A stretch of DNA of 64,000 nt. It comes from Plantibacter sp. PA-3-X8. GTDB taxonomy: Bacteria; Actinomycetota; Actinomycetes; Actinomycetales; Microbacteriaceae. This document shows positions 34,015 through 51,892 of this stretch, one piece after another (the first letter of the stretch is position 1; every line of letters starts with the position of its first letter). The stretch lies in the NCBI RefSeq assembly GCF_003856975.1, contig NZ_CP033107.1, positions 1,860,001 through 1,924,000 of the forward strand. Direction: 5' to 3'. A program made the translations under genes and the position numbers. The notes below the pieces were generated by a model. The model did no database searches and was not told the origin of the DNA. It saw nothing but the letters and a program-made list of their open reading frames with translations.

Positions 34015-34043
34015 TTGACAGTCCGCTGGAGCAGGTGAGTAAT
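34015..34043 (+). promoter_or_regulatory. sigma-A-type promoter of the arabinofuranosidase/peptide import operon
   Basis: TTGACA (34015-34020, perfect -35), a 17-nt spacer and AGTAAT (34038-34043, 4/6 to TATAAT). The -10 hexamer is also the start of the first proposed operator, so a bound repressor would block it. Confidence 0.65.
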
Positions 34044-34090
34044 GTGTCACCCACCACAAACCCGGATCCGTGTACTGTGTCACACGGTAC
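34038..34090. promoter_or_regulatory. two GntR-type operator sites
   Basis: Site 1 is AGTAATGTGTCAC (34038-34050), overlapping the -10. Site 2 is GTACTGTGTCACACGGTAC (34072-34090), nearly palindromic, ending 17 bp before the ATG at 34108. Both contain TGTGTCAC. The 13-bp core of site 1 recurs exactly, on the other strand, in the operator at 45199-45226. The FCD-type GntR protein encoded between them is the obvious candidate regulator. Confidence 0.65.
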
Positions 34091-34107
34091 AGAAAGGCCT
34101 GTCGCCC

Positions 34108-36126: not shown

Positions 36127-36204
36127 CCTCCTCCCGTCCCCCGACCCCGCTCCACCCTCTCCACCCGCGGGCGACCCGCCCGATCGACACGAAAGCAGAG
36201 CGTC

Positions 36205-37899
36205 ATGAAGCAACGATTCTCCATCCCCGCCCTCGCGGCGGCGGCCGTCCTCCTCCTCGCGGGGTGTACCTCCGCGGGTTCGGGCTCGGGAGGTGACGGA
36301 CCGTCCAGCACCCCGGTGAAGGGCGGCACCGTCGACGTCCTCCTGAACGCGGACTTCTCGCACCTCGACCCGGTCCAGGGCTTCGACGGCGGCGTGAACA
36401 ACTTCTACCGCCTCATCTACCGCACGTTGACGACGCAGTCCACGGGCGAGGGCGCCAAGGGCACCGAGATGGTGCCCGACCTCGCGACCGACCTCGGCAC
36501 GGTGAGCGACGACGGCCTCCAGTGGACGTTCACGCTCAAGGACGACCTCAAGTTCGAGGACGGCACGCCGATCACGAGCAAGGACGTGAAGTTCGGCGTC
36601 GAGCGCTCCTTCGACCCTGCCATCGCCGTCGGATCGCCCTACGCCCGCCTCACGATCGCCGGCACGGACTCGTACGAGGGCCCGTACATCACGGGTGACC
36701 TGCCGTCCATCCAGACGCCGGACGACCAGACCATCGTTTTCACGCTCAAGGAGCCGTTCGCCGACTTCGCGAGCGTCGTCGGGCAGAACAGCTTCACGCC
36801 CTTCCCCGCCGACACCGAGCGGGTGACGACGACGAGCCTCGACAAGATGCCGATCGCCTCCGGCCCCTACAAGGTCGACAGCTACGAGCGCGGCTCGCAG
36901 CTGAAGCTCGTCCGCAACGACTCGTGGGACCCGAAGACGGACGACGTCCGCAAGGCCTACCCGGACGGCTTCGATTTCACCTTCGGCCTCGACGCCTCGA
37001 CCATCGACGAGCGCATGATCGCCGGCCAGGGTGACGACGCGAACGCGATCGCCGGGTCCGTCCAGGCAGCCTCCATCTCCCGGATCCAGACGCCGGCACT
37101 CAAGGCACGCACCATCGCCGGCCTCCAGGGCTGCACCACGTACATGGGTCTGAACACGACCAAGCCGAACATGGACAACCCGCTGGTCCGCCAGGCCATC
37201 GCCTACGCCATCGACCGCGAGTCGGTGAAGGACGCCTCGGGCGGATCGCAGCTCGCGGACATCGCGACCACCATGCTGCCGCCCACCGTCGCCGGCCACA
37301 CCGAATTCGACCTCTACCCGAGCAAGGACAACGCAGGCGACCCGGAGAAGGCCAAGGAACTCCTCACCGAGGCGGGCCTCCCCGACGGCTTCTCGTTCAC
37401 GCTCGACATCCGCAGCCAGCCCAAGATGCAGGCGCAGGCCGAGGCGGTGCAGCAGGCGCTCGCGAAGGCCGGCATCACGGTGAACTTCAACCTCATCGAC
37501 ACCTCGACCTACTACGAGGTCATCGGCACGACGTCGCAGCAGAACGACGCCGCCATCACCGGCTGGTGCCCGGACTGGGCCTCCGGCTCGACCTTCCTGC
37601 CGCCGCTCTTCGACGGCTCGCAGATCTTCCCGAAGGGCAACTCGAACATCGCACAGCTGAACGACCCCGCCGTCAACGAGCGCATCGCCGAGATCCGCGC
37701 GATGACCGACACCGACGAGGCCAACGCCGCTTGGGGCGCGCTCGACGAGCAGATCCAGAAGCTCGTGCCGACGGTGCCGCTGCTGTTCGAGAAGACGGTC
37801 ATGGTCGTCGGAGCGAACGTCGCCGGTGCGTACTCGCACGCCGGGTACTCCGGTGGCATCGACTACGTGTCCGTCGGCCTGTCCTCGGCCGGCAAGTAG
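36205..37899 (+). CDS. ABC transporter substrate-binding lipoprotein, peptide type (SBP_bac_5)
   Basis: This 564-residue protein has a lipoprotein signal with Cys21 (LLLAGC), a Gly/Ser-rich linker, and the DppA/OppA family body: GGTVDVLLNADFSHLDPVQG near the N-terminus and VRQAIAYAIDRESV in the middle. It should capture peptides or peptide-like ligands outside the membrane and hand them to the permeases encoded next. Its neighbours (arabinofuranosidase, proline-specific peptidases, hydroxyproline catabolism) suggest hydroxyproline-rich peptides or glycopeptides. It lies 78 nt after the GH127 gene. Confidence 0.88.
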   Translation: MKQRFSIPALAAAAVLLLAGCTSAGSGSGGDGPSSTPVKGGTVDVLLNADFSHLDPVQGFDGGVNNFYRLIYRTLTTQSTGEGAKGTEMVPDLATDLGTVSDDGLQWTFTLKDDLKFEDGTPITSKDVKFGVERSFDPAIAVGSPYARLTIAGTDSYEGPYITGDLPSIQTPDDQTIVFTLKEPFADFASVVGQNSFTPFPADTERVTTTSLDKMPIASGPYKVDSYERGSQLKLVRNDSWDPKTDDVRKAYPDGFDFTFGLDASTIDERMIAGQGDDANAIAGSVQAASISRIQTPALKARTIAGLQGCTTYMGLNTTKPNMDNPLVRQAIAYAIDRESVKDASGGSQLADIATTMLPPTVAGHTEFDLYPSKDNAGDPEKAKELLTEAGLPDGFSFTLDIRSQPKMQAQAEAVQQALAKAGITVNFNLIDTSTYYEVIGTTSQQNDAAITGWCPDWASGSTFLPPLFDGSQIFPKGNSNIAQLNDPAVNERIAEIRAMTDTDEANAAWGALDEQIQKLVPTVPLLFEKTVMVVGANVAGAYSHAGYSGGIDYVSVGLSSAGK

Positions 37900-37920: not shown

Positions 37921-38880
37921 ATGTCGTCGTCCGTTCCCAGTGAGCTGACCACCGTCGCCGAGGAGGTGGGTGCGCCGGTCGGTGCGCCCACCCCCGCGCG
38001 GCGGGTGATCGCCTCCCTCCGCTCCAGCCCGCCGGTGCTGCTCAGCGTCGCGTTCATCGTGCTCGTCGTGCTGCTCGCGATCCTCGCCCCGCTGATCACC
38101 GCGATCAGCGGCTGGGGTCCGTACACCTTCGACAAGTCGGCGGTGGACTCCGACCTCGGCGGCGTGCCGATCGGCAACCTCGGCGGGATCTCCGCCGAGC
38201 ACTGGTTCGGGGTCGAACCCGGGAACGGACGCGACATCTTCGCGCGCATCGCCTTCGGTGCGCAGGTGTCGCTGTCGATCGCCGTCTCGGCGACGATCGT
38301 CACCACCGTGCTCGGCGTCGTGCTCGGCATGCTCGCCGGCTTCTACGGCGGGTGGGTCGACCAGGTCGTCTCCCGCGTCATGGACTTCCTCATGGCGTTC
38401 CCATCGCTCATCTTCATGATCGCGCTCCTGTCGGCCCTGCCCGCCGGCAACCGACCGGTCCTGCTCGTCGTCGTGCTGAGCCTCTTCGGCTGGCCGTACA
38501 CCGCTCGGGTGGTGCGCGGTCAGGCGATGTCGCTGCGGACGAGCGAGTTCGTCGAATCGGCGCGTGCTTCGGGCGCCGGGGGCATCCGCATCGTCTTCCG
38601 CGAGATCCTGCCGAACCTCCGCGGCACCATCATCGTCCTGGCCACCCTCGCCGTTCCCGGTTACATCGGCACGGAGGCGGGCCTCTCCTTCCTCGGTGTC
38701 GGCGTCACCCCGCCCACGCCGAGCTGGGGCCAGATGATCGCGACCGCGGTCGGTTGGTACGCGGTCGACCCGATGTACTTCCTGATCCCCGGCACCTTCC
38801 TGTTCCTCACGGTGCTGTCCTTCACCGTGCTCGGCGACCGCCTGCGCAAGGCCCTCGACTCGGGAGACGCCGCCTCATGA
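37921..38880 (+). CDS. peptide ABC transporter permease (DppC-type)
   Basis: This 319-residue inner-membrane protein has an N-terminal helix, the extracellular DppC-like loop (HWFGVEPGNGRDIFARIAFG), and the permease EAA-like loop FVESARASGAGGIRIVFREILPN. About six membrane helices are present. It forms the channel with the DppB-type subunit encoded next. It starts 21 nt after the binding-protein stop, and its own stop overlaps the next ATG (ATGA). The DppC gene before DppB is the reverse of the usual order. Confidence 0.88.
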   Translation: MSSSVPSELTTVAEEVGAPVGAPTPARRVIASLRSSPPVLLSVAFIVLVVLLAILAPLITAISGWGPYTFDKSAVDSDLGGVPIGNLGGISAEHWFGVEPGNGRDIFARIAFGAQVSLSIAVSATIVTTVLGVVLGMLAGFYGGWVDQVVSRVMDFLMAFPSLIFMIALLSALPAGNRPVLLVVVLSLFGWPYTARVVRGQAMSLRTSEFVESARASGAGGIRIVFREILPNLRGTIIVLATLAVPGYIGTEAGLSFLGVGVTPPTPSWGQMIATAVGWYAVDPMYFLIPGTFLFLTVLSFTVLGDRLRKALDSGDAAS

Positions 38881-39872
38881 CCCTCTACCTCCTGCGCCGG
38901 ATCGCGTCGGCGATCGGCATCCTGCTGCTCATCAGCCTCTTCACCTACGTCATCTTCTTCCTGCTGTCGCCCGACCCGGCGGTGCAGATCTGCGGCAAGA
39001 CCTGCACCCCCGACCGCATCGACCAGATCCGGGCGCAGCTCGGGCTCGACCAGCCGTTCTGGCAGCAGTACCTCGAGTTCATCCGGGGGATCGTCATGGG
39101 CCGGAGCTACGGGGAGGGCGCCTCGGCGGTCTCCTGCGCGGCGCCGTGCCTCGGCTTCAGCTTCCAGACCAACGAGTCCGTCATGGACATGATCACCGCG
39201 CGCTTCCCGGTGACCGCGACGGTCGCGATCGGTGCGGCGGTCCTCTGGCTGCTCGTCGGCGTCAGCGGTGGCCTGCTCAGCGCCGTCAAGCAGGGGACCG
39301 GCTGGGACCGTGGGGCGATGATGGTCGCCCTCGCCGGTATCAGCCTGCCGAACTACTTCCTCGCGCTCCTCCTGCAGTACGTCCTCGTGGTGCAATTGCA
39401 GATCCTGCCGTTCCCGCAGGCCGTGCCCTTCGCCGAGGACCCGGTCCGGTGGTTCCAGAACTACCTCATGCCGTGGATCGTGCTCGCCCTCGGCTACGCG
39501 TCGATGTACGCGAGGCTCGTCCGGGCGAACGTCATCGACACCCTCGGTGAGAACTTCATGCGGACCGCCCGGGCGAAGGGCCTGCCCGCGCCGCTCATCC
39601 TGCGCCGCCATGCGCTGCGCCCGGCGCTCACGCCCGTCGTCACGCTCTTCGGCATGGACTTCGCGGGCCTCCTCGGGGGCGCCCTCATCACCGAGACGGT
39701 GTTCGGGTTGAACGGCGTCGGCAAGCTCGCCGCCGACTCGATCGCGAAGAACGACCAGCCCGTCATCATGGGCGTCACCCTGCTGGCCGCGTTCTTCGTG
39801 GTCATCGGCAACGTCGTGGTCGACGTCGTGTACACGTTCCTCGACCCGAGAGTGAGAGTGAAGAGCGCATGA
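38877..39872 (+). CDS. peptide ABC transporter permease (DppB-type)
   Basis: This 331-residue membrane protein begins MTLYLLRRIASAIG, the usual N-terminus of DppB/OppB, followed by a loop with PDRIDQIRAQLGLDQPFWQQY and helices with the cytoplasmic NFMRTARAKGLP EAA-type loop. A Cys pair (ICGKTC) and another (SCAAPC) lie in the large extracellular loop, possibly disulfides, which are not typical for the family. ATG 38877 overlaps the preceding stop by 4 nt; longer in-frame sequence upstream is shadow. Confidence 0.88.
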   Translation: MTLYLLRRIASAIGILLLISLFTYVIFFLLSPDPAVQICGKTCTPDRIDQIRAQLGLDQPFWQQYLEFIRGIVMGRSYGEGASAVSCAAPCLGFSFQTNESVMDMITARFPVTATVAIGAAVLWLLVGVSGGLLSAVKQGTGWDRGAMMVALAGISLPNYFLALLLQYVLVVQLQILPFPQAVPFAEDPVRWFQNYLMPWIVLALGYASMYARLVRANVIDTLGENFMRTARAKGLPAPLILRRHALRPALTPVVTLFGMDFAGLLGGALITETVFGLNGVGKLAADSIAKNDQPVIMGVTLLAAFFVVIGNVVVDVVYTFLDPRVRVKSA

Positions 39873-40750
39873 GCCCCACCGTCACCAGGACCATCTCCCT
39901 GCCCGTCCCCGGGGCGGCGCTGCTCGAGGTCGACGACCTCACGGTCACCTTCCCGACCACCTCCGGCGACATCGACGTGGTGCGGAAGGCGTCGTTCGCG
40001 GTCCAGCACGGCCAGACCCTCGGCATCGTGGGCGAGTCCGGCTCCGGCAAGTCCATGACCTCGCTCGCGATCATGGGACTGCTCCCGAACGGCGGGCGCA
40101 CGACCGGCAGCGTCCGGCTGAGCGGACACGAGCTCGTCGGTCGCAGCGACCGCGAGATGCGGCGGGTGCGCGGCGATCGGATCGCGATGGTCTTCCAGGA
40201 CCCGCTCTCCTCGCTCAACCCGTACTACACCGTCGGACTGCAGATCGAGGAGGCGTACCGCGCCCATCGCGGCGGCTCCCGGAAGGCCGCCAGGGCCGTC
40301 ACGATCGAGGCCCTCGAACGGGTCCGCATCGCGGACGCCTCCCGGCGGGTCGACCACTACCCGCACCAGTTCTCTGGCGGCATGCGGCAGCGCATCATGA
40401 TCGCCATGGCGCTCTGTCTGGAACCCGACCTGCTCATCGCGGACGAACCGACGACGGCGCTCGACGTCACCGTCCAGGCGCAGATCCTCGACCTCCTCTC
40501 CGAACTGCAACGGGAGACCGGTGCCGGCATGATCTTCATCACCCACGACCTCGCCGTCGTCAGTCAGGTCGCCGACGACGTGCTCGTCATGCGCGGCGGC
40601 GACCCCGTCGAGATGGGCACGGCCGAACAGATCTTCTCCCGACCACAGGCGGCGTACACCCGGGCGCTCCTCGACGCCCTCCCGCGGATCGACGACCCGT
40701 TCACCGGGCGGCCGACGGCACCCGCCACGACCGGAGAGGGACAGGCATGA
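39869..40750 (+). CDS. peptide ABC transporter ATP-binding protein (DppD-type)
   Basis: This 293-residue nucleotide-binding subunit has Walker A (GESGSGKS, about residue 53), the ABC signature (FSGGMRQR), Walker B ([12 protein letters not shown]) and the switch His (ITHDLAV). It pairs with the following ATPase to power import. The start overlaps the preceding stop by 4 nt (ATGA). The C-terminus is shorter than in typical DppD and keeps the Pro-rich end. It belongs to the same operon as both permeases. Confidence 0.9.
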
Positions 40751-41625
40751 ACGACGCACCAGTGCTCCTGCAGGCCACCGGGCTCACGAAGGACTTCACC
40801 ACGAGGGGCGACGGCGCGTTCCGCGCACGCACCACCCAGTTCCGCGCCGTCGACGACGTCGGGTTCGCCGTCCGCGCCGGCGAGACGCTCGGCATCGTCG
40901 GGGAGTCGGGCAGCGGCAAGTCGACGACCGCGCGGATGATCGCGAAGCTCATCGAACCGACCGCCGGCACGATCACCTTCGACGGCGAGGACGTCACCAC
41001 TGCGCGTGGGCCGGCGCTCGCCGCGTTCCGGACGAAGGTGCAGGTCGTCTTCCAGGACCCGTTCTCCTCCCTCAACCCGAGGCACACCGTCGAGCGCATC
41101 GTGTCGGCACCGCTCGACTACCAGGGCATCACCCCGAAGCAGGGCAAGCGTGCCCTCGTGCGCGACCTGCTCGACCGCGTCGGCCTGAACCCCGACCACC
41201 TCCAGCGCTACCCGCGGCAGTTCTCCGGCGGCCAGGCCCAGCGCATCGGGATCGCCCGGGCGCTCGCCGTCTCCCCGAAGCTCGTGATCTGCGACGAGGC
41301 GGTGTCGGCGCTCGACGTGTCGGTGCAGGCACGCATCATCGACCTGCTGCGCGACCTGCAGGCCGAGCGCGGCCTGAGCTACCTGTTCATCGCGCACGAC
41401 CTCGCCGTCGTGCGGCAGATCGCGCACGACGTCGCCGTCATGCACCGGGGCAAGGTGGTCGAGCAGGGTGACCGCGAGGCGATCTTCGACCACCCGCAGG
41501 ACGAGTACACGAAGACCCTGCTCGCCGCCGTGCCCACGATCGACCCGAGCTGGGAGGCCGCGCGTGCCACCATGCTCGAACAGGAGCGGACGCACGGACC
41601 GGCCGCCGGAAGGACACAGGCATGA
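40747..41625 (+). CDS. peptide ABC transporter ATP-binding protein (DppF-type)
   Basis: This 292-residue ATPase has GESGSGKST (Walker A), FSGGQAQRIG (signature), LVICDEAVSALD (Walker B; the usual DEPVSALD has become DEAVSALD) and IAHDLAV. Start and stop both overlap neighbours by 4 nt, showing tight translational coupling from the first ATPase to the peptidase gene. It completes the five-part importer: binding protein, two permeases and two ATPases. Confidence 0.9.
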   Translation: MNDAPVLLQATGLTKDFTTRGDGAFRARTTQFRAVDDVGFAVRAGETLGIVGESGSGKSTTARMIAKLIEPTAGTITFDGEDVTTARGPALAAFRTKVQVVFQDPFSSLNPRHTVERIVSAPLDYQGITPKQGKRALVRDLLDRVGLNPDHLQRYPRQFSGGQAQRIGIARALAVSPKLVICDEAVSALDVSVQARIIDLLRDLQAERGLSYLFIAHDLAVVRQIAHDVAVMHRGKVVEQGDREAIFDHPQDEYTKTLLAAVPTIDPSWEAARATMLEQERTHGPAAGRTQA

Positions 41626-42935
41626 CCCACCGCACCACCACCTCCCTGCTGCCGGGGATCCACGTGACCGACCACACGGTCGACGTCCCGCTCGACTGGC
41701 GACGGCCCGACGACGGCCGCACGATCAGCGTGTTCGCCCGCGAACTCGTCGACCCCCTGCGTCGCGACGAGCAGCTCCCGATCCTCGTGTTCCTCCAGGG
41801 CGGACCGGGCGGCAAAGGCCCGCGTCCGGTGTCCAGGGACGGCTGGATCGCCGAGGCCCTCCGCACCTTCCGGCTCGTGCTGCTCGACCAGCGCGGCACC
41901 GGCCGGAGCACCAGGATCGACGGCCGGTCCATCGCGGCCGTCGGTGATGCTGCCGCACAGGCCGAGTACCTGGAACGCTTCCGGGCCGACTCGATCGTCG
42001 ACGACGCCGAGTACCTGCGCCGCACCGTCTTCGGTGGCCGTCGCTGGTCGACGCTCGGTCAGAGCTACGGCGGGTTCCTCACCCTCACCTACCTCTCGCG
42101 AGCCCCGGAGGGACTGGCCGCCTGCTACGTCACCGGCGGTCTGGCGGGCATCCACCCGTCGGCGGCGGAGGTCTACCGACGCACCTATCCGCGCACCGAG
42201 CGCAAGAACCGGGCCTTCGCCGAGCGGTACCCCCAGGACGTCGACACCGTCGCGCGGATCGCCGACCGACTCGCCGCCGAGGAGGTGCTCCTGCCGGACG
42301 GCGACCGACTCACCGTGCGGCGCTTCCAGAACCTCGGGATCGACTTCGGGATGAAGCCCGGTTACGAGCGTCTCCACTGGCTGCTCGACGAGGCGTTCGA
42401 CAGCGGCGACCGCTTGAGCGACACCTTCCTGGCGCAGGCCTGGGGGAGGACGTCCTACGTCGACAACCCCCTCTTCATCGCCCTGCAGGAGAGCATCTAC
42501 GGTGCCGCCGGCGCGGGGGCGACCGCGTGGGCGGCGCAGGCCGAGCGCGATGCACGGCCGGCGTTCGCCGAGACGGCCAGGCCGCTGCTGTTCACGGGCG
42601 AGATGGTCTATCCCTGGATGTTCGAGGAGATCCGCTCGCTCCGGCCCTTCCAGGGTGCAGTGGAGCGACTGGCGGCCAAGACCGACTGGGACCCGCTGTA
42701 CGACCCCGCGGTCCTGCAGGCGAGCACGGTGCCGCTCGCCGCGGCCGTGTACTTCGACGACATGTACGTGGACGCGCAGCTGCAGTTGGAGACGGTCGAC
42801 GCCGTCGGCGGGGCGACCGCCTGGGTCACGAACGAGTACGAGCACGACGGGATCCAGGACGCCGCCGTGGTGCGCCACCTGTTCTCGATGGTGGACGAGC
42901 GCGGCGGCCGTCGCGCGGATGAGGAGCAGGCATGA
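41622..42935 (+). CDS. S33-family prolyl aminopeptidase-like alpha/beta hydrolase
   Basis: This 437-residue protein has the oxyanion motif GGPGGKGPRP, DQRGTGRST, the nucleophile elbow GQSYGG (Ser148) and a C-terminal HDGI carrying the likely catalytic His. This is the prolyl iminopeptidase layout, longer than classical PIP by an expanded cap. PIPs release N-terminal proline, and some accept hydroxyproline. No signal peptide, so it acts in the cytoplasm. It overlaps both neighbours by 4 nt, directly after the importer genes, as expected for a peptidase that processes the imported peptides. Confidence 0.85.
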   Translation: MTHRTTTSLLPGIHVTDHTVDVPLDWRRPDDGRTISVFARELVDPLRRDEQLPILVFLQGGPGGKGPRPVSRDGWIAEALRTFRLVLLDQRGTGRSTRIDGRSIAAVGDAAAQAEYLERFRADSIVDDAEYLRRTVFGGRRWSTLGQSYGGFLTLTYLSRAPEGLAACYVTGGLAGIHPSAAEVYRRTYPRTERKNRAFAERYPQDVDTVARIADRLAAEEVLLPDGDRLTVRRFQNLGIDFGMKPGYERLHWLLDEAFDSGDRLSDTFLAQAWGRTSYVDNPLFIALQESIYGAAGAGATAWAAQAERDARPAFAETARPLLFTGEMVYPWMFEEIRSLRPFQGAVERLAAKTDWDPLYDPAVLQASTVPLAAAVYFDDMYVDAQLQLETVDAVGGATAWVTNEYEHDGIQDAAVVRHLFSMVDERGGRRADEEQA

Positions 42936-44422
42936 CCGACACGCAGCAGCAGGCACCCGAGCAGACGGCGGGCCTCGCGCCGGCCACCACGGAGGCACCC
43001 GCCAGGTCCATGCCGCGCCCGGCGAACCCGGACCCGAAGCTGCCCCGCCTGGCCGAGGTGCCGGCGTTCCGCGAGTTCCTCGGCACCGGCTGGGGCACCC
43101 CCGACCGCACGCCGCCGGTCGAGCCCGGGATCGCCGCGGCCGCAGCCGAGCACCGTCGTCGGCTGAGCGAGGCCTTCGTCGGGCGGACACTCGTCGTCGC
43201 CGCCGGACGCGCGCCCGTCCGTGCCAACGACTCGAACTACGACTTCCGCCCCGACAGCGACTTCTTCTGGCTCACCGGCTGCTCCGCCGAGGACGCGGTC
43301 CTCGTGCTGCGTCCGAGCGGCGCCGTTCACGACGCGACGTTGTACATCCCGGCACCGGCGCACCCGGGCGAGACCGGGTTCTTCGCCGACGCCAACCACG
43401 GTGAGCTCTGGGTCGGCTCCGCGCCGGGGCCGGCCGACTGGTCGGCGGTCCTCGACCTCCGCGTCGAGGTGCTCGCCGCGCTGCCCGACGCGCTCCGAGG
43501 CGTCGACCGACCGCTCCTCGCGGGGACGCTGACCTCGCAGCATCGCGCGCTCGAGCCGCTGACGGTCGCGCCGGAACTCGGCCGTGTGCTCTCGGAACTG
43601 CGCATGATCAAGGACGAGTGGGAGATCGCGGAGCTGCGGCGAGCGGTCGACGCGACCGTCGGCGGGTTCTCCGCCGTGATCCGGGAGCTGCCGACGGCCG
43701 TCGCCGGCGGGGGTGAGCGCTGGCTGCAGGGGACCTTCGACCGGCACGCCCGCACCACGGGGAACGGCCCCGGCTACTCGACCATCGTCGGCAGCGGCGC
43801 GCACGCACCCACGCTCCACTGGGTGCGCTGCGACGGTCCGGTCCGCCCCGAGGACGCGATCCTGCTCGACATGGGCGTGGAGACGCGTGCGTTCTACACG
43901 GCGGACGTCACCCGCACCTTCCCCGTCTCGGGCACCTTCAGCCCGGAGCAGCGGCGCGTCCACGACCTCGTCGAGGCGTCCCACCGCGCCGGGATGGCCG
44001 CCGTCCGTCCGGGCCGCGACTTCACCGACTTCCACCACGCCGCCATGGAGGTCATCGCGCAGGGACTCCACGACTGGGACCTCCTGCCGGTGTCCGTCGA
44101 CGAGGCGCTGAGCCCGGTCGGGCAACAGCACCGGCGGTACCTCGTGTGCGGCATCGGTCACCACCTCGGCCTCGATGTCCACGACTGCGCGAAGTCCTCC
44201 TACGAGGCCTACCAGGGCGGCTCGATGGCGCCCGGCATGGTGCTCACGGTCGAGCCGGGGCTGTACTTCCACGCCTTCGACGAGACGGTTCCACCGGAAC
44301 TGCGCGGCATCGGCGTCCGGCTCGAGGACGACCTGCTCGTGACGGCCGACGGCACCGAGGTGCTGTCGGATGCGCTGCCCATCGACGCGTCGGGCATCGA
44401 AGCGTGGATGCGCGCCCAGTAA
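42932..44422 (+). CDS. Xaa-Pro aminopeptidase-like (M24B)
   Basis: This 496-residue protein has the aminopeptidase P N-terminal domain and the pita-bread catalytic domain. The dimetal ligands are visible: LDMGVE and YTADVTRTF (two Asp), GHHLGLDVHD (His), LTVEPGLYF (Glu) and GVRLEDDLLV (Glu). It should remove an N-terminal residue before proline or hydroxyproline. The N-terminal 30 residues are an unstructured Pro/Ala extension. With the S33 enzyme it gives a pair able to strip proline-rich peptides from the N-terminus. It overlaps the S33 gene by 4 nt and is the last gene before the regulator. Confidence 0.9.
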   Translation: MTDTQQQAPEQTAGLAPATTEAPARSMPRPANPDPKLPRLAEVPAFREFLGTGWGTPDRTPPVEPGIAAAAAEHRRRLSEAFVGRTLVVAAGRAPVRANDSNYDFRPDSDFFWLTGCSAEDAVLVLRPSGAVHDATLYIPAPAHPGETGFFADANHGELWVGSAPGPADWSAVLDLRVEVLAALPDALRGVDRPLLAGTLTSQHRALEPLTVAPELGRVLSELRMIKDEWEIAELRRAVDATVGGFSAVIRELPTAVAGGGERWLQGTFDRHARTTGNGPGYSTIVGSGAHAPTLHWVRCDGPVRPEDAILLDMGVETRAFYTADVTRTFPVSGTFSPEQRRVHDLVEASHRAGMAAVRPGRDFTDFHHAAMEVIAQGLHDWDLLPVSVDEALSPVGQQHRRYLVCGIGHHLGLDVHDCAKSSYEAYQGGSMAPGMVLTVEPGLYFHAFDETVPPELRGIGVRLEDDLLVTADGTEVLSDALPIDASGIEAWMRAQ

Positions 44423-44463
44423 CCTGAGCGGACCGTGGTGGGAGATGAAGGATGGGAGTCGCG

Positions 44464-45141
44464 ATGAGCATGTCGGCGATCCGACCGGCCGAGGAACGGC
44501 TGAGCCTGCGGGCGCAGGTGGAGCGGGCGGTGTCCGCGGCGATCATCTCGGGCGAGCTCGCGCCGGGGACGATGATCTCGGTACCGACGCTGGCGGTGCA
44601 GTTCAACGTCTCGGCGACGCCCGTCCGCGAAGCGATGCTCGACCTCGAGAAGCGCGACTTCGTGGAGGCGGTCCGGAACAAGGGGTTCCGCGTCACGGTC
44701 GTCAGCGAGGCCTCGCTCCGCAACACGGCGCAGATCCGCCAGCTCCTCGAGCCGCCCGCGATGGCGGACCTGGCGGAGGTCTTCGATCACGGGTCGCTGC
44801 CCGAGCTCCGGCAGCAGGCTGACGACATCGTGGCCGGTGCCCGCGACGGCGACCTGACCCGGTACCTCGAAGCCGACCAGGCGTTCCACCTCGCGCTCAC
44901 CGCGAAACTCGGCAACCCGCTGCTCGTCGAGCTCGTCGCGGACCTCCGCGGACGTACCCGGCTCGTCGGACTGGCCGCCATGCTCGATTCGCAGCAGCTC
45001 GACCGCTCGGCCGTGGAGCACCACGAACTCCTCGACGCCCTCGAGCGGGGTGACGGGGTCGCCGCTCGCGAGCTCATGCACCGACACATCGGGCACACCA
45101 CCGGCTGGTGGGCCGGCAAGCCCGAGTCCGACGCCGAGTAG
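44464..45141 (+). CDS. GntR-family transcriptional regulator (FCD domain)
   Basis: This 225-residue protein has an N-terminal winged helix (about residues 15-75, with SVPTLAVQFNVSATPVREAMLDLEKRD-type helix-turn-helix) and a C-terminal all-helical FCD ligand domain with metal-binding Asp/His candidates (DQAFHLAL, a later VEHHELLDAL and MHRHIG). FadR-subfamily members usually sense a carboxylate. It lies between the peptide-import half and the hydroxyproline half of the island. The most likely operators contain TGTGTCAC at 34038-34090 and 45199-45226, which it would repress until its ligand appears. ATG 44464 (GGGAG 5 nt upstream) is chosen over 44452. Confidence 0.85.
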   Translation: MSMSAIRPAEERLSLRAQVERAVSAAIISGELAPGTMISVPTLAVQFNVSATPVREAMLDLEKRDFVEAVRNKGFRVTVVSEASLRNTAQIRQLLEPPAMADLAEVFDHGSLPELRQQADDIVAGARDGDLTRYLEADQAFHLALTAKLGNPLLVELVADLRGRTRLVGLAAMLDSQQLDRSAVEHHELLDALERGDGVAARELMHRHIGHTTGWWAGKPESDAE

Positions 45142-45198: not shown

Positions 45199-45226
45199 TT
45201 CAGTGAATGTGTGACACATTACTGAA
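45199..45226. promoter_or_regulatory. palindromic operator before the hydroxyproline operon
   Basis: The arms AATGTGT and ACACATT are exact around a central G, extended by TTCAGT on the left and ACTGAA on the right (one extra G on the left). Read on the minus strand it contains AGTAATGTGTCAC, identical to the core overlapping the promoter at 34038. Weak promoter-like hexamers (TTGCCT 45192-45197 and CACATT 45215-45220) fall in the same place, so binding would block initiation. Confidence 0.7.
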
Positions 45227-45259: not shown

Positions 45260-46456
45260 GTGACCCGCATCGTCATCGTCGGCGCCGGCATCGTCGGTGC
45301 GGCCTGCGCGCGGATCCTCGCCCGACGCGGTGCCGAGGTCGTCGTGCTCGACCGTTCGGCGGCCGCCGGCGGCACGAGCGGCTCGGGGGAGGGGAACCTC
45401 CTCGTCTCCGACAAGGGGCCCGGCCCCGAACTCGACCTCGCGCGGTACGCTTCACGCCTCTGGCCCGTCGTCACCGCCGAACTCAGCGCCGAACTGGGAC
45501 CGACCTTCCCGAGCATCGAGTTCGAGCGCAAGGGCGGCATCGTGGTCGCCACCACCGAGGCCGGCGCGCAGCCCCTGCTCGACTTCGCCGCCGCCCAGCG
45601 CGCCGCCGGTGTCGACGCCAGACCCCTCACCGAGGACGAGCTGCTCGCGGCGGAGCCGTCGATCACCCGCTCGTCCACGGCGGCCGTCCATTATCCCGAG
45701 GACGCACAGGTGCAGCCCGTCATCGCCACGGAGGCCCTGCTCGCCTCGGCCCGACAGGCGGGCGCGGTCGTGCGCACCGGCGTCACCGTGACGGGCGGCG
45801 TCCGGAGCGCGACCGGACGCCTCACGGGTGTCCGGACATCCGTCGGCGACGTCTCGGGCGACGCGGTCCTCGTCTGCGCCGGACCGTGGTCGGCCGAGCT
45901 CGGCGACCTGCTCGGGGCGCCCGTCCCGGTCCGTCCCCGTCGCGGCATGGTGCTCGTCACCACCCGCATGCCGCACCGCGTGCACCACAAGGTCTACGAC
46001 GGCGACTACTTCGGGGCCACGCAGTCGAGCGACGCCTCGCTCCAGACCTCGAGCGTCGTCGAGTCCACCGCCGCGGGCACGGTCCTCATCGGCTCGAGCC
46101 GGCAGCAGATCGGGTTCGACGCGCGCCTCGACGTCGACGTGCTCCGCGAGGTCGCGGCGAAGTCGCTGCGCCTCTTCCCGTTCCTCCGCGACGCCTCGGT
46201 CATGCGCAGCTACGGCGGCTTCCGGCCGTACATGCCCGACCACCTCCCGGTCATCGGCCCCGACCACCGGGTCGACGGCCTGTGGCACGCGACCGGGCAC
46301 GAGGGTGCCGGCATCGGGCTCGCCCTGGCGACGGCCGAGCTCATCGCCGCCCGGATGCTCGGCGGATCGGCCGCCCTCGACGACACCCCCTTCCAACTCG
46401 ACCGTCCTGGCCTCGCTCCCCATCTGGGCACTGACCGACCGGCGGAGGTGGCCTGA
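45260..46456 (+). CDS. FAD-dependent D-amino-acid dehydrogenase subunit (hydroxy-D-proline dehydrogenase, DAO-like)
   Basis: This 398-residue DAO-fold flavoprotein has the FAD-binding VGAGIVGA (7-14), a GGTSGSGEGNLLVSDKGPG loop and the C-terminal RPYMPDHLPVIGP...WHATGHEGAGIGLA motif typical of the glycine/sarcosine/hydroxyproline oxidase family. With the two following genes it matches the multi-part cis-4-hydroxy-D-proline dehydrogenase (LhpB/E/F, related to HcnABC). The reaction expected is oxidation to pyrroline-4-hydroxy-2-carboxylate. Its last codon overlaps the next ATG by 1 nt. Confidence 0.83.
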   Translation: MTRIVIVGAGIVGAACARILARRGAEVVVLDRSAAAGGTSGSGEGNLLVSDKGPGPELDLARYASRLWPVVTAELSAELGPTFPSIEFERKGGIVVATTEAGAQPLLDFAAAQRAAGVDARPLTEDELLAAEPSITRSSTAAVHYPEDAQVQPVIATEALLASARQAGAVVRTGVTVTGGVRSATGRLTGVRTSVGDVSGDAVLVCAGPWSAELGDLLGAPVPVRPRRGMVLVTTRMPHRVHHKVYDGDYFGATQSSDASLQTSSVVESTAAGTVLIGSSRQQIGFDARLDVDVLREVAAKSLRLFPFLRDASVMRSYGGFRPYMPDHLPVIGPDHRVDGLWHATGHEGAGIGLALATAELIAARMLGGSAALDDTPFQLDRPGLAPHLGTDRPAEVA

Positions 46457-46806
46457 TGGCGTCACGACGACTGCCCGCGACGAGCGACCGGATCGGTCCC
46501 GGCCCGGAGGACGCGCTGCGGATCGACCTCGACGGGACGCCCGTCGACGGCATCCGCGGCCAGACGATCGCCGGCGTCCTGCTCGGATCCGGCGTGCTCG
46601 CCTGGCGTCGGACCAGCGGCTCGGGCAAGCCACGCGGCGTCTTCTGCGGCATCGGGGTCTGCTTCGACTGCATCGTCACGGTGAACGGCCAGCGGGACGT
46701 CCGTGCCTGCCAGCGTCGCGCCGCGGACGGCGACCGCATCGAGACACAGCACGACGCCCTCCCGGAACCCACGACGGAGAACGACCCGTTCGGGGACCGG
46801 ACATGA
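46456..46806 (+). CDS. [2Fe-2S] small subunit of the hydroxyproline dehydrogenase
   Basis: This 116-residue protein is a short ferredoxin-like unit. Cys64, Cys69, Cys72 and Cys85 (CGIGVCFDC...VRAC) form the plant-type 2Fe-2S cluster motif Cx4Cx2Cx12C. It resembles HcnA/SoxA-like small subunits. It probably passes electrons from the flavin subunits. The genes before and after overlap by 1 and 4 nt, a sign that the three subunits are made together. Confidence 0.85.
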   Translation: MASRRLPATSDRIGPGPEDALRIDLDGTPVDGIRGQTIAGVLLGSGVLAWRRTSGSGKPRGVFCGIGVCFDCIVTVNGQRDVRACQRRAADGDRIETQHDALPEPTTENDPFGDRT

Positions 46807-48323
46807 GCGCCCGGCAGCGTGAGGTCGTCGTCGTCGGCGCAGGGCCAGCCGGCCTCCAGGCCGCGCTCGCCGCCCGGGCGCTCGGCGCCGCCGTCACGCT
46901 GCTCGACGCCTCGGACGAGCTCGGCGGTCAGTACTGGCGGCACCTGCCGGCCAGCCGGCCGTCGGAAGCAGAGGCCTCGCTGCACCACGGGTTCGAGCGC
47001 TTCGTCTCCATGCGCGCGGCGCTCGACGCCGACGACGCCTGCACGGTGATCACCGAGGCGCAGGTGTGGGCGATCGACGTCGACCGCGGCGCCGCCGCCG
47101 ACCACGGGTCCGACGACACCTCCGGGGCGACCGGCCTGCGCCTGCACGTCCTCGTCGGACCGCCGGACGGCACCGACCGCACGCCCCTCACCCTCCGGCC
47201 GGACGCGCTCGTCCTCGCGACCGGCGCGCACGACCGCACGCTGCCGTTCCCCGGCTGGGACCTCCCCGGCGTCTTCTCGGCCGGTGCCGCCCAGGCCCTC
47301 GCGAAGGGCGAGCGGGTCGCCGTCGGTCAGCGGGTGGTCGTGGCCGGTGCCGGACCGTTCCTGCTGCCGGTGGCCGCGTCCCTGACCGCGACCGGATCAC
47401 GCGTGCTCGGGGTCTACGAGGCCACGACCGTCGGCGGCCTCGCGAGGGGCTGGCTCCCCAAGCCCTGGCAGCTGCTCGGCGTGACCGGGAAGGCCGGTGA
47501 ACTGCTCGGCTACGTCGGTGGACACCTCCGCCACCGGATCCCGTACCGCGTCGGTCACGCGGTGGTCGCCGCGCACGGCGCCGACCGGGTCGAGCGCGTG
47601 ACCATCGCCGCCGTCGACGCCGACTGGTCGCCGATCCCCGGCACCGAGCGCACGGTCGAAGCGGACGCCGTGTGCGTCAGTCACGGGTTCACCCCGCGGC
47701 TCGAACTGCCCGTCGCGGTCGGCTGCGCGCTCACCGAAGCCCGGTTCGTCCAGGTCGACGCCGAGCAGCGCACGAGCGTCCCGACCGTCTTCGCGGCGGG
47801 GGAGATCACCGGGATCGGGGGTGTCGACGCCGCGCTCGCCGAGGGCGCGATCGCGGGACACGCTGCGGCCGGCGGCCTCCCCGGTGCCTCCGGGATCCGT
47901 GCCGCCGTGAGCCGACGCGACACGTTCCTCGCCTTCGCCGACCGGCTCGAACGTGCCCACGGCATCCGTGCCGGCTGGAGCGACTGGCTCGACGACGACA
48001 CCACCATCTGCCGCTGCGAGGAGGTCGACTACGGCTCCCTGCGAGCGACGGCGACCGCCACCTGCGCGACCGGCCTGCGCTCGCTCAAACTCAGCACGCG
48101 TGCCGGGCTCGGGATCTGCCAGGGCCGCATGTGCGGTCGCACCGTCGAGGAGCTCCTCCACCGCGTCGCCTCCGAATCCGGCGGCAGCGGCCTCATCGAC
48201 GGCGTCTCGAGCGACCGCCGGCCCATCGCCTCCCCGCTGCGCATCGGCGAACTCGCCGCGCAGGCACCGGGACACCCTCCCCACGAACCGCCGTCGACCC
48301 CGACGGCCGAACACCCAGGATGA
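46803..48323 (+). CDS. FAD/NAD(P)-binding large subunit of the hydroxyproline dehydrogenase, with BFD-like [2Fe-2S] domain
   Basis: This 506-residue protein has an N-terminal dinucleotide-binding motif (VVVGAGPAGLQAALAA), a second one (VVVAGAGPFLLPVAA) and a C-terminal domain with CRCEEV at about 403-408 and GICQGRMCG at about 438-446, a Cys-x-Cys...Cys-x4-Cys cluster motif of BFD type. This is the arrangement of HcnB and LhpF-like subunits. It should accept electrons from the DAO-like subunit and pass them to a quinone or another carrier. ATG 46803 overlaps the small-subunit stop by 4 nt. Confidence 0.83.
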   Translation: MSARQREVVVVGAGPAGLQAALAARALGAAVTLLDASDELGGQYWRHLPASRPSEAEASLHHGFERFVSMRAALDADDACTVITEAQVWAIDVDRGAAADHGSDDTSGATGLRLHVLVGPPDGTDRTPLTLRPDALVLATGAHDRTLPFPGWDLPGVFSAGAAQALAKGERVAVGQRVVVAGAGPFLLPVAASLTATGSRVLGVYEATTVGGLARGWLPKPWQLLGVTGKAGELLGYVGGHLRHRIPYRVGHAVVAAHGADRVERVTIAAVDADWSPIPGTERTVEADAVCVSHGFTPRLELPVAVGCALTEARFVQVDAEQRTSVPTVFAAGEITGIGGVDAALAEGAIAGHAAAGGLPGASGIRAAVSRRDTFLAFADRLERAHGIRAGWSDWLDDDTTICRCEEVDYGSLRATATATCATGLRSLKLSTRAGLGICQGRMCGRTVEELLHRVASESGGSGLIDGVSSDRRPIASPLRIGELAAQAPGHPPHEPPSTPTAEHPG

Positions 48324-48364
48324 CCGACCGGTCTCCGCACCACTCCCTCGGAAAGGAACCACCC

Positions 48365-49279
48365 ATGGCCAAACAGTTCGACCTCGGCGGCGTCATCGTC
48401 GCGACCACCCTCGCGTTCAAGGAGGACGCCTCGGCGCCCGCAGGCCTCGCCGTCGACTACGACCGCTTCGCCGAGCACTGCAACTGGCTCATCGAGAACG
48501 GTTGCCGCGGCGTCGGCCCGAACGGCTCGCTCGGTGAGTACTCGTCGCTGACGGACGCCGAGCGTCGCAAGGTCATCCAGGTCGCGGTCGACACGGTCGG
48601 CGACCGCGGCCTCGTCGTCGCCGGGGTACACGGGGTCGGCTGGCACCAGGCCCAGCAGTGGGCCGAGTACGCGAAGGAGGACGGCGCGGACGGCGTCCTG
48701 CTCCTGCCGCCCACCATCTACCGGGCGAACGACGACGAGGTCATCGAGCACTACAGCCGCGTGGACGAGGTCGGCCTGCCGATCATGGCCTACAACAATC
48801 CCATCGACACGAAGGTCGACCTCACGCCCGACCTGCTCGTCGAGCTCGCCAAGCTCGAGCACGTCGTCGCCGTGAAGGAGTTCTCGGCCGACATCCGTCG
48901 TGTGCTCGAGATCCAGGACAAGACCGACCTCGACGTCATCGCGGGGGCGGACGACCTCCTCTTCGAGTCCCTCGTCGCCGGCGCGGTCGGCTGGTTCGCC
49001 GGCTACCCGAACGCCTTCCCGCGCGAGGCCGTCGAGCTGTACACGCTCGTCACCTCCGGTCGCGTCGACGAGGCCCGCACCCTCTACCGCGAGCTCGTGC
49101 CCGTCTTCGGGTGGGACTCGAAGACGGAGTTCGTCCAGGCCATCAAGCTGTCGATCGACATCGCCGGCGAGAGCTACGGTGGTCCGACGCGTCCGCCGCG
49201 CGGTCCGCTGAACGCGCTCCAGACGGAGCAGGTCACGACGCAGACGCGTCGCGCGCTCGACTACCTCGCGGCACGCTGA
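48365..49279 (+). CDS. DapA-family 1-pyrroline-4-hydroxy-2-carboxylate deaminase
   Basis: This 304-residue TIM-barrel protein of the DHDPS/NAL family has the Schiff-base Lys171 (VVAVKEFSAD) and Tyr143 (MAYNNP). Among DapA homologues, the one next to hydroxyproline epimerase and dehydrogenase genes is known to deaminate 1-pyrroline-4-hydroxy-2-carboxylate to 2-oxoglutarate semialdehyde (LhpC). That assignment rests on context as well as on family. GGAAAGG lies 8-9 nt before the ATG. It sits 41 nt after the dehydrogenase. Confidence 0.8.
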   Translation: MAKQFDLGGVIVATTLAFKEDASAPAGLAVDYDRFAEHCNWLIENGCRGVGPNGSLGEYSSLTDAERRKVIQVAVDTVGDRGLVVAGVHGVGWHQAQQWAEYAKEDGADGVLLLPPTIYRANDDEVIEHYSRVDEVGLPIMAYNNPIDTKVDLTPDLLVELAKLEHVVAVKEFSADIRRVLEIQDKTDLDVIAGADDLLFESLVAGAVGWFAGYPNAFPREAVELYTLVTSGRVDEARTLYRELVPVFGWDSKTEFVQAIKLSIDIAGESYGGPTRPPRGPLNALQTEQVTTQTRRALDYLAAR

Positions 49280-49334: not shown

Positions 49335-50336
49335 ATGAAGTCCTCCCGCATGATCAGTGCGGTCGACTCGCACACCGAGGGCATGCCGACCCGCGTCGTC
49401 ACCGGCGGGGTCGGCGTGATCCCCGGCGCGACCATGAACGAGAAGCGCCTGCACTTCATGGAGCACCTCGACGACCTGCGGCTCTTCCTCATGAACGAGC
49501 CTCGCGGTCACGCGGCGATGAGCGGGGCGATCCTGCAGCCGTCCACGCGCGCGGACTGCGACTGGGGCGTCGTGTACATCGAGGTGTCCGGCTGCCTGCC
49601 GATGTGCGGGCACGGCACCATCGGGGTCGCGACGGTCCTCGTGGAGACCGGCATGGTGGAGGTGGTCGAGCCGGTCACGACGATCCGGCTCGACACCCCC
49701 GCCGGACTCGTGATCGCCCGGGTCGACGTCAGCGACGGGCACGCCGACCGCGTGACCATCGAGAACGTCCCGAGCTACGTCGACCGCCTCGACGCCACGA
49801 TCGAGGTGCCCGGCCTCGGCACCGTGCCCTACAGCCTCGCGTTCGGCGGCAACTTCTACGCGATGGTCGACCTCGACGACGTCGGCCTGCCCTTCGACCG
49901 CGACCGCCAGCAGGACATCCTCGACGCGGGCCTGCGGATCATGGCGGCGATCAACGAGCAGGCGCCGCCCGTGCACCCCGAGATCGCCGGGCTCGACCAC
50001 TGCCACCACGTCGAGTTCATCGCGCCGGGATCCGACGCCGTGCTGTCCCGGCATGCCATGGCCATCTTCCCGGGGTGGTTCGACCGCTCGCCATGTGGCA
50101 CCGGCACCTCGGCGCGCATGGCCGAGCTCTGGGCCCGCGGTGAGCTGCCGCTCGACCAGGACTTCGTCAACGAGTCCTTCATCGGCAGCCGGTTCACCGG
50201 CCGGCTGATCGCCGAGACGACGGTGGCGGGCCGGCCGGCCGTCATCCCGACCATCTCCGGTCGGGCCTGGGTCACCGGCATCGGCTCCTACCTCCTCGAC
50301 CCCGCCGATCCGTTCCCGACCGGCTTCCAGTTCTGA
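49335..50336 (+). CDS. 4-hydroxyproline 2-epimerase (proline racemase family)
   Basis: This 333-residue protein carries both catalytic cysteines of the family, Cys91 (PMCGHGTIG) and Cys254 (SPCGTGTSAR), and the conserved DSHTEGMPTRVV start. Cofactor-free two-base epimerisation converts trans-4-hydroxy-L-proline to cis-4-hydroxy-D-proline, the substrate of the upstream dehydrogenase. A true proline racemase or trans-3-hydroxyproline dehydratase cannot be fully excluded, but the second Cys argues against the dehydratase and the operon argues for the epimerase. Confidence 0.85.
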   Translation: MKSSRMISAVDSHTEGMPTRVVTGGVGVIPGATMNEKRLHFMEHLDDLRLFLMNEPRGHAAMSGAILQPSTRADCDWGVVYIEVSGCLPMCGHGTIGVATVLVETGMVEVVEPVTTIRLDTPAGLVIARVDVSDGHADRVTIENVPSYVDRLDATIEVPGLGTVPYSLAFGGNFYAMVDLDDVGLPFDRDRQQDILDAGLRIMAAINEQAPPVHPEIAGLDHCHHVEFIAPGSDAVLSRHAMAIFPGWFDRSPCGTGTSARMAELWARGELPLDQDFVNESFIGSRFTGRLIAETTVAGRPAVIPTISGRAWVTGIGSYLLDPADPFPTGFQF

Positions 50337-50362
50337 ACCGCACCACGATCCCGGAGGATCAC

Positions 50363-51892
50363 ATGACGACCACGCCAGCCCCCGACGCCACCATCGCTGA
50401 GACCACCCCCGAGCAGCTCGAGGAGGTCCTCCGGGGAGCCGCCGCGGCTGCACCTGCGTGGGCCGCGACGCCGGCGGACGCCCGTGCGCGAGCGCTCGTC
50501 GCCGTCGCCGACGCCCTGCAGGCCCACGCGGACGAGCTCGTCCCGGTCGGCATGGTCGAGACGGGGCTTGCCGAGGCACGGCTCCGAGGCGAGCTCCGTC
50601 GCACCGCCGTGCAACTGCGGCTCTTCGCGGAGACGATCGTCGACGGGTCCTACCTCGACGTCCGGATCGACGAGGCCGACCCGGACTTCGCACTCGGCGC
50701 ACGCCCGGAACTCCGCCGCGTCCTCGTGCCGCTCGGCCCGGTCGTGAACTTCGCGGCGAGCAACTTCCCGTTCGCCTTCTCCGTCGCCGGTGGCGACACC
50801 GCGTCGATCCTCGCGGCCGGATGCCCGGTGATCCTCAAAGTGCACGACGGGCACCCGCGGCTCTCGCTCGCGACGGCGGCCGTCGTCGAGGCCGCGCTCC
50901 GGGCGTCCGGGGCTCCTGACGGCGTGTTCCAGACGATCATCGGCCAGGAAGCCGGCGTCGTCGCGCTGCAGGACGAGCGCGTCCGGGCCGGTTCCTTCAC
51001 GGGCTCCCTCCGGGCCGGCCGGATCCTCGCGGACCTCGCGGCGGCGCGCCCCGTCCCGATCCCGTTCTTCGGCGAGCTCGGCAGCGTCAACCCCGTGTTC
51101 GTGACGCAGACCGCCCTCGACGAGTCCGCGACGGCCATCGCGACGGGATTCGTCACGAGTGTCGCGGGCTCGGCGGGTCAGCTGTGCACGAAGCCCGGCT
51201 TCGTCTACCTGCCGGACGGCGCGGGGCTCGACGAGTCGATCCGCGAGGCTGCTGCCGCGGTTCCCGAGCACCGACTCCTGAACGACCGCATCACGGCCGG
51301 GTACGAGGCGAGGCGAGACGCCATCCTCGGCACCGACGGCGTGCGGGTCATCGCCGAGGGTTCGCTCCGGGTCGACGAGGACGGCGACGGCTGGGCGACC
51401 CCCACGATCGTCGCGGTCTCACTCGACGCGCTGCGGGCCGGTCGGGACGCCCTGCTCGACGAGGCCTTCGGTCCGTTGTCGATCCTCGTCGAGGTCCCGG
51501 CCGGTACGGCGTTCGCGCCGCTCGTGCCGGAGTTCTGCGAGGGCAACCTGACGGCCACCCTGCACGCCGGTGCCGACGAGACGAGCGACGACCTCGTGGA
51601 ACTCGTCCAGCAGCTCTCGGCGCACGCCGGCCGGGTGCTGTTCGGCGGTTGGCCCACCGGCGTCGCGGTCACGCCCGCCATGCAGCACGGCGGACCGTGG
51701 CCGGCGACGACGAACGACTCGAGCACCTCGGTGGGGACGGCTGCGATCACCCGTTTCCTGCGGCCGGTCGCGTTCCAGAACATGCCGGACCGGTTCCTGC
51801 CGGAGGTGCTGCGGTCGTCGGCCACCGGTGTCCCACGCACGGTCGCGCCCGCGGGCGAGTCGACGCACTGGGGCGAGGCGGCTCAGCGCTGA
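50363..51892 (+). CDS. 2-oxoglutarate semialdehyde dehydrogenase (NADP-type aldehyde dehydrogenase)
   Basis: This 509-residue aldehyde dehydrogenase has Glu238 (FFGELGSVNPVF) and the nucleophile Cys275 (GQLCTKPG), and the overall pattern of LhpG/AraE-like 2-oxoglutarate semialdehyde dehydrogenases (for example NFAASNFPFAFSVAGGDTASILAAG). It should oxidise the semialdehyde to 2-oxoglutarate, the last step of hydroxyproline breakdown before the TCA cycle. It is the last gene of the island; the next gene is on the minus strand. It lies 27 nt after the epimerase gene. Confidence 0.87.
   Translation: MTTTPAPDATIAETTPEQLEEVLRGAAAAAPAWAATPADARARALVAVADALQAHADELVPVGMVETGLAEARLRGELRRTAVQLRLFAETIVDGSYLDVRIDEADPDFALGARPELRRVLVPLGPVVNFAASNFPFAFSVAGGDTASILAAGCPVILKVHDGHPRLSLATAAVVEAALRASGAPDGVFQTIIGQEAGVVALQDERVRAGSFTGSLRAGRILADLAAARPVPIPFFGELGSVNPVFVTQTALDESATAIATGFVTSVAGSAGQLCTKPGFVYLPDGAGLDESIREAAAAVPEHRLLNDRITAGYEARRDAILGTDGVRVIAEGSLRVDEDGDGWATPTIVAVSLDALRAGRDALLDEAFGPLSILVEVPAGTAFAPLVPEFCEGNLTATLHAGADETSDDLVELVQQLSAHAGRVLFGGWPTGVAVTPAMQHGGPWPATTNDSSTSVGTAAITRFLRPVAFQNMPDRFLPEVLRSSATGVPRTVAPAGESTHWGEAAQR

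Follow-up and report, generated by a model that had tools for sequence, protein, structure and literature searches.

A conserved actinobacterial gene island predicted to take up and break down hydroxyproline-rich plant glycopeptides

Introduction

Apart from the sugar-only route of Bifidobacterium, there is little knowledge of microbial recycling of the hydroxyproline (Hyp)-rich glycoproteins that are abundant in plant walls. Whether a single bacterial locus may join the use of their sugar, peptide and imino-acid parts is the question raised by a 15-gene island of Plantibacter sp. PA-3-X8, which lies in a 64,000-nucleotide stretch (the window) covering positions 1860001-1924000 of one contig, 4.08 Mb in length; island coordinates are window positions. 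Its gene content, its conservation and its operator-like sites indicate that the island is quite probably a catabolic regulon for Hyp-rich plant glycopeptides, with a GH127 family glycosidase, an ATP-binding cassette (ABC) importer of the peptide type, two peptidases, a regulator and a set for Hyp breakdown.

Gene content and layout

The 15 genes are located on the plus strand at 34108-51892, frequently with 4-base overlaps. A first block (34108-45141) is followed, after a gap of 118 bases that contains the third of three operator-like sites, by a second (45260-51892; Table 1). All members of the gene list of the earlier note on this DNA (GH127, importer, peptidases, regulator and Hyp-breakdown set, on the plus strand) were recovered by assignment of open reading frames and Pfam domains. 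The importer genes follow the order of binding protein, C-type permease, B-type permease and two ATPases.

Conservation within the Microbacteriaceae

A search of 249 genomes of the family with the S33-like hydrolase yielded 45 matches at ≥54% identity outside the window's genome, and 40 of these loci were fetched. A GH127 gene at 56-96% identity was present in 17 of the 40, and the whole 15-gene order was retained in 15 of those 17, the other two (L044 and L052) being without the catabolic half at that place; elsewhere, many of the S33 matches lay outside any such island. The GH127 search split cleanly, with matches at ≥56% in 20 of the 249 genomes and all others at ≤50%. The epimerase (≥60% identity; 55 of 249 genomes) was present in 20 of the 20 genomes with this GH127 clade versus 35 of the 229 others (P=3e-15; Fisher test), and at the genus level in 8 of 8 versus 20 of 77 (P=6e-5), although these values overstate independence because the genomes are related. 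GH127 and epimerase lay within 16 kb in 18 of the 20, including one genome (G053, locus L186) in which the halves are divergent. Co-occurrence of the two halves, to which the earlier note had tied its proposal, is thus complete in the clade and comes with linkage in nearly all of it. In 19 control loci with other GH127s (38-44% identity; hand-picked from the same GH127 search), the binding protein, the peptidases and the Hyp genes were found in 0 of 19, and four loci had weak (27-33%) permease or ATPase matches.

Four further loci (L056, L057, L059 and L072) harbour S33, M24 and Hyp genes with no GH127; L057 has the same importer, and L072 is rearranged. Because S33 and M24 accompany the Hyp genes in these GH127-free loci, GH127 looks like an add-on to a Hyp-peptide core, as judged from gene content. 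In L056 and L059, which keep the same S33, M24, GntR and Hyp operon, a different peptide importer (order substrate-binding protein (SBP)-D-F-C-B; 32-53% identity), with an operator-like site ahead of it, lies within 10 kb on the upstream side of the GntR gene.

Occurrence across Actinomycetes

When the clade alignment was run against contigs of named genomes, at least 80 loci were matched; 74 of the 80 listed belong to the GH127 clade and are referred to as the listed loci, for which flanks of up to 10 kb were examined. The nearest named relatives are four Plantibacter records (GH127 at 80-96% identity), and the genera represented are Plantibacter, Agromyces, Glaciibacter, Okibacterium, Clavibacter, Microbacterium, Planctomonas, Krasilnikoviella, Isoptericola, Terrabacter, Arthrobacter, Specibacter, Acidipropionibacterium, Kribbella, Nonomuraea, Streptosporangium, Streptomyces and others. 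The hint of an island peculiar to plant-associated Microbacteriaceae is rejected, as Kribbella, Nonomuraea, Streptomyces, Isoptericola and Terrabacter have it as well.

Among the 74 listed loci, 71 encode the SBP, 70 both permeases, 63 S33 and 55 M24. Of the loci missing the SBP, L129 and L147 are contig ends, whereas L128, with Hyp genes on both sides, is a true exception. A Hyp gene above thresholds was found in 42 of the 74, which is a lower bound because the first Hyp gene of the Plantibacter layout lies 11 kb from the GH127 start, beyond flanks of ≤10 kb. The catabolic genes occur in several layouts. They may share the strand, either downstream or, in L135, upstream, or they may be divergent on the upstream side (L108, L110, L120, L148 and L149, and without S33 in L107 and L121). 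Deaminase and epimerase directly follow M24 in L118, L131, L152, L155 and others. In the six scan loci whose GH127 falls outside the clade (L160-L165), one weak ATPase match (L162) was the sole trace of the island genes.

Operator-like sites

The exact core TGTGTSACACA occurs once in the genome, at 45208-45218 ahead of the Hyp operon. With up to one mismatch it occurs at only eight genome places (seven beyond the exact one), two of them just ahead of GH127, versus four for the reversed control; with two mismatches, the 11-mer was not enriched in the window relative to shuffled sequence (5 found versus 8.09 expected). Of the two GH127 sites, one matches a longer palindrome pattern in full and the other with 1 mismatch, while the Hyp site matches it with 2, as do three other genome places (control, 1); genome-wide, long-form matches with at most one mismatch are confined to the island. 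The operator argument is carried by this longer form and by comparison among relatives, not by the 11-mer counts.

For that comparison, a position matrix was built from the Hyp-operon sites of relatives. It placed the sites upstream of GH127 at ranks 1-3 of ~19,900 positions in 17 of the 17 family GH127 loci, a test that was not blind because the patterns and seed consensus were set after both promoters had been viewed, and whose matrix includes one poor site (L057). The site ahead of GH127 in L052 is weak (score 12.6; next best 12.4). In G003 and G079 the Hyp operon is distant from GH127, yet still bears a site.

The published motif of HypR from Streptomyces coelicolor is CTNTGC(A/C)ATGTCAC (PMC6608401, accessible part). 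Its core, TGC(A/C)ATGTCAC, stands ahead of GH127 in 16 of the 74 listed loci (Kribbella and four others), with a density of 25 sites in 24 kb of GH127-upstream DNA versus 6 in the remaining 1.52 Mb, and Nonomuraea GH127 promoters carry a one-base variant of the motif, GTGCAATGCCAC. When any base was allowed at one position, the core was found in 38 of the 74, with the Plantibacter-like form in 16 others; these loci are related, and kinship inflates the counts. The Plantibacter sites have a core in common with the HypR motif but differ from the exact published core that GH127 promoters of relatives carry. Together, the sites support common regulation of the island, except in Kribbella, as far as promoter patterns can suggest it.

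Predicted functions of the encoded proteins

The translation start of GH127 is probably 34108 rather than 34042, because a start at 34042 would traverse operator-like sites 1 and 2. The catalytic, middle and C-terminal domains all score above the Pfam cut-offs (PF07944 at 269.8 bits). Ten HypBA1 positions that we take to be the catalytic Glu and Cys-Zn site (H142, H194, H270, E322, E338, C340, Y386, C415, C417 and C418) are kept in 10 of 10 cases and are invariant across a 15-member alignment of the clade. Identity to HypBA1 is 132 of 380 compared positions, from which specificity is not readable; action on Hyp-arabinosides is suggested by family and residues. A second GH127 gene of the same genome (G000:C1:1057630-1059303; 44% identity) has no island genes around it.

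The domain set of an Opp/Dpp importer is complete, with SBP_bac_5, two permeases and two ATPases with oligo_HPY, and the importer is predicted to take up intact arabinosylated peptides. A reading of the sequences revealed no evident signal peptide on GH127, S33 or M24, and the sole importer of the island is of the peptide type, which makes it most likely that arabinose would enter the cell attached to peptide. The closest solved chain to S33 is 8jgn (AT3g61540; 340 bits across residues 10-425), and the M24 protein has both the AMP_N and Peptidase_M24 domains. Both peptidases are predicted to accept Hyp; a Serratia prolyl aminopeptidase reportedly acts well on acetylated hydroxyproline, to go by a paper's title.

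Epimerase, dehydrogenase, deaminase and semialdehyde dehydrogenase occur together by domains and gene order, their activities in Hyp breakdown being predicted; for the aldehyde dehydrogenase, no model's cut-off was reached in the NCBIfam search. The presumed epimerase has the catalytic Cys pair of the proline racemase family, and its assignment to 4-hydroxyproline is made because of operon context. A trans-3-hydroxyproline dehydratase, an enzyme not known to have both Cys, was considered and set aside as both are present. A second protein of the racemase family (31-36% identity to the epimerase, both Cys retained) is encoded near islands L092 (6060-9036), L142 (679-1710), L071, L072, L074, L075, L104 and L155; for the L142 copy, the best NCBIfam label is trans-3-hydroxyproline dehydratase, under the cut-off.

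Proposed route and alternative explanations

In the route proposed, short Hyp-rich O-arabinosylated peptides formed extracellularly would be bound by the SBP lipoprotein and imported via the Opp/Dpp-type transporter. Cytoplasmic GH127 would then take beta-L-arabinofuranose off Hyp, while M24 would cut before Pro or Hyp and S33 would release N-terminal Pro or Hyp in alternation, as their families suggest, so that the three enzymes could unzip Ser-Hyp repeats. The trans-4-hydroxy-L-proline set free would be turned by the epimerase into cis-4-hydroxy-D-proline and then pass through the three-part dehydrogenase, the deaminase and an oxidation to 2-oxoglutarate, a pathway known in other bacteria; arabinose would enter the isomerase route via AraA, whose gene is located elsewhere on the Plantibacter chromosome. 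The GntR-FCD protein, if it acts as HypR does in S. coelicolor, would repress both blocks via the shared palindrome until a Hyp metabolite is present, a step that Hyp induction in S. coelicolor supports by analogy only. A more specific version is offered tentatively and is on balance rather doubtful: a dedicated importer of intact Hyp-O-arabinosylated peptides with deglycosylation in the cytoplasm, whose natural cargo may extend beyond extensin fragments to the arabinosylated peptide hormones that plants secrete. The importer would then serve, widely among actinobacteria, as a sink for signal peptides of plants.

It is improbable that the cargo of the importer is beta-arabino-oligosaccharides or Hyp-arabinoside rather than peptides, with the peptidases serving general peptide turnover. 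The SBP family 5 does include non-peptide binders, of which AgaA (6hlx) and a mannoside-type binder (4pfu) are among the structure matches, and the GH127 system of Bifidobacterium longum imports a disaccharide (PMC7263609, accessible part). However, among solved structures the SBP comes closest to OppA2 (2wok), an oligopeptide binder, at 292 bits versus 120 for the runner-up; both peptidases are frequent in the listed loci (63 and 55 of 74); and L057 keeps the importer and both peptidases with its Hyp genes, though it has no GH127. Less probable again is a system that takes Hyp peptides whatever their source, among them those of collagen, and that GH127 would just extend to plant material: to our knowledge, collagen is without arabinose, and GH127-clade loci of the family have their sites ahead of GH127, the first gene, even though GH127-free variants with the same or another importer exist (L056, L057 and L059). 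A secreted collagenase under HypR control in S. coelicolor would also fit such a system (PMC6608401, accessible part). Finally, it is hardly credible that the peptide and Hyp operons are ordinary neighbours with no functional link, since the shared sites, the co-occurrence, the several layouts and the 0 of 19 controls all argue for a link, even if the halves are apart in Kribbella and in two family genomes. Chance clustering is rejected in view of the sites, co-occurrence and controls.

Several points weigh against a catabolic regulon for Hyp-rich plant glycopeptides, the reading preferred here. The activities and binding proposed here are predictions from sequence, and neither a secreted protease nor an alpha-arabinofuranosidase is found among the 15 island genes. 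The GH127 family also includes an aceric acid hydrolase, whose model NF049879 is matched at 328 bits; identity with that enzyme was rejected, as the score is far below the 950-bit cut-off. S33 falls outside the pro_imino_pep_1 equivalog of NCBIfam (34.7 bits; cut-off 259.75), M24 does not reach the cut-off of its best NCBIfam model, PRK10879 Xaa-Pro aminopeptidase (211 versus 465 bits), and the epimerase is below the cut-offs of both the 4-Hyp epimerase model PRK13971 (337 versus 376 bits) and its top model, proline racemase (343 versus 556 bits). The short core, with up to one mismatch, has eight genome places versus four for the reversed control, as noted above. Among the listed loci, 20 of 74 have neither site form within 300 bases ahead of GH127 by simple patterns, and 32 of 74 have no Hyp gene above thresholds within the flanks; S33 is absent from some Streptomyces loci. 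In Kribbella (12 loci), M24 is absent and the Hyp operon is elsewhere in the genome: an epimerase at 69-73% identity is found there in 11 of 12 genomes, with only a 40% paralogue in the remaining one, and a site was absent upstream of 5 of the 5 Hyp operons checked. The 'one regulon' of the earlier note is accordingly supported by the palindrome ahead of both halves, except in Kribbella.

Relation to described systems

The comparisons below extend to the accessible parts of the reports cited. In B. longum, secreted enzymes of the HypAA-HypBA2-HypBA1 system cut the sugar outside the cell and beta-Ara2 is imported (PMC7263609). The island resembles it in pairing a GH127, predicted to be intracellular, with an ABC importer for probable use on plant Hyp-arabinosides, but differs in its Opp/Dpp-type importer, peptidases and Hyp breakdown, as the B. 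longum importer is for sugar and Hyp use goes unmentioned in that part of the report (PMC7263609). Within the 15 island genes, a B. longum-type sugar importer, GH121 and any glycosidase other than GH127 are absent.

The HypR regulon of S. coelicolor comprises SCO6289-6294; Hyp induces its operon, loss of the epimerase by mutation abolishes growth on Hyp, and DNA binding by HypR in vitro is unaffected by L-Hyp or D-Hyp (PMC6608401). A divergent transporter gene, SCO6295, uses the same hypR promoter region (PMC6608401). Common to this regulon and the island are a regulator of the GntR type (FadR subfamily), matching genes for a three-part dehydrogenase, a deaminase and an epimerase, and an operator motif with the ATGTCAC core; unlike the island, the regulon includes a secreted collagenase, and in the accessible text no glycosidase is named and no peptide importer or peptidase pair is evident (PMC6608401). 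The lhp/hyp operons of Pseudomonas and Sinorhizobium have the same kind of Hyp breakdown pathway, with a GntR (FadR)-like repressor in Sinorhizobium, but are described for free Hyp, and the Pseudomonas regulator is of the AraC type (cited in PMC6608401). An in silico account of extensin use in Latescibacteria likewise names GH127 as acting on Hyp-linked arabinose, as a genome-wide inference to which, in its accessible part, no gene cluster or Hyp pathway is tied (PMC4454575).

No description of a system with this layout was found in the literature, in agreement with the earlier note, the coverage being without most subscription journals and all preprints. Known modules are combined here in a system that is conserved, seems to be under common regulation and has a probable glycopeptide importer. 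The island links the use of sugar, peptide and imino acid in what appears to be a single regulon occurring across Actinomycetes, points to a glycopeptide importer that can be tested, and would widen HypR-type control beyond collagen to the walls of plants; its genes are also ready for use in assays and as markers of strains that can live on extensin.

Table 1. Genes and operator-like sites of the Plantibacter island (window positions)
Feature	Position	Strand	Basis or remark
Operator-like site 1, GTAATGTGTCACCCACCAC	34039..34057	+	69 bases ahead of GH127 start
Operator-like site 2, GTACTGTGTCACACGGTAC	34072..34090	+	36 bases ahead of GH127 start
GH127 family glycosidase, 672 amino acids	34108..36126	+	Pfam PF07944, PF20736, PF20737
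Substrate-binding lipoprotein, SBP_bac_5, lipobox LAGC visible	36205..37899	+	PF00496; nearest solved relative OppA2 2wok
OppC/DppC-type permease	37921..38880	+	PF00528, PF12911
OppB/DppB-type permease	38877..39872	+	PF19300, PF00528
OppD-type ATPase	39869..40750	+	PF00005, PF08352
OppF-type ATPase	40747..41625	+	PF00005, PF08352
S33-like alpha/beta hydrolase, prolyl-aminopeptidase-like, long (437 amino acids) type	41622..42935	+	PF00561
M24 Xaa-Pro aminopeptidase-like enzyme	42932..44422	+	PF00557, PF05195
GntR-FCD regulator, putative HypR-like role	44452..45141	+	PF00392, PF07729
Operator-like site 3, TGAATGTGTGACACATTAC	45204..45222	+	in gap ahead of Hyp operon; core 45208-45218
FAD subunit of presumed D-hydroxyproline dehydrogenase (DAO family)	45260..46456	+	PF01266
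2Fe-2S subunit of presumed dehydrogenase	46453..46806	+	PF13510 Fer2_4
Pyr_redox_2 / BFD-type [2Fe-2S] subunit of presumed dehydrogenase	46803..48323	+	PF07992, PF04324
DHDPS-family protein, presumed 1-pyrroline-4-hydroxy-2-carboxylate deaminase	48365..49279	+	PF00701; pathway position
Proline racemase family protein, presumed 4-hydroxyproline 2-epimerase	49335..50336	+	PF05544, 419 bits; C91 and C254
Aldehyde dehydrogenase, presumed 2-oxoglutarate semialdehyde dehydrogenase	50363..51892	+	PF00171

Additional observations

The Microbacterium regulon seems to be larger. Divergent from its GH127 gene, with an operator-like site between the two at 9599, is a gene (L142:7246-9540, minus strand; also L199-L202) whose product begins with a signal-peptide-like stretch and has an HEFGH motif and an LPRTG anchor, but no Pfam or NCBIfam match. 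It was found in 4 of the 249 family genomes, which are all island-bearing and belong to one genus. The adjoining gene (L142:5586-7103, minus strand), with a strong operator-like site at 7134, encodes a protein of the Na:alanine symporter family that might carry free Hyp or Pro. A putative surface protease and a putative carrier of free imino acids would complete the Microbacterium route.

The flanks of the Plantibacter island appear unrelated to it, with minus-strand genes for DEAD-box helicase and GNAT and a DUF4916 gene on one side, and genes for an EVE-domain protein (immediately 3′ of the island, at 52462-53001) and 2-phosphosulpholactate phosphatase on the other. A Hen1-Pnkp RNA repair pair, also apparently unrelated, lies directly upstream of a Kribbella island (L095:5704-9641). 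In an Arthrobacter island (L104:12000-16000), the SBP gene is duplicated in tandem.

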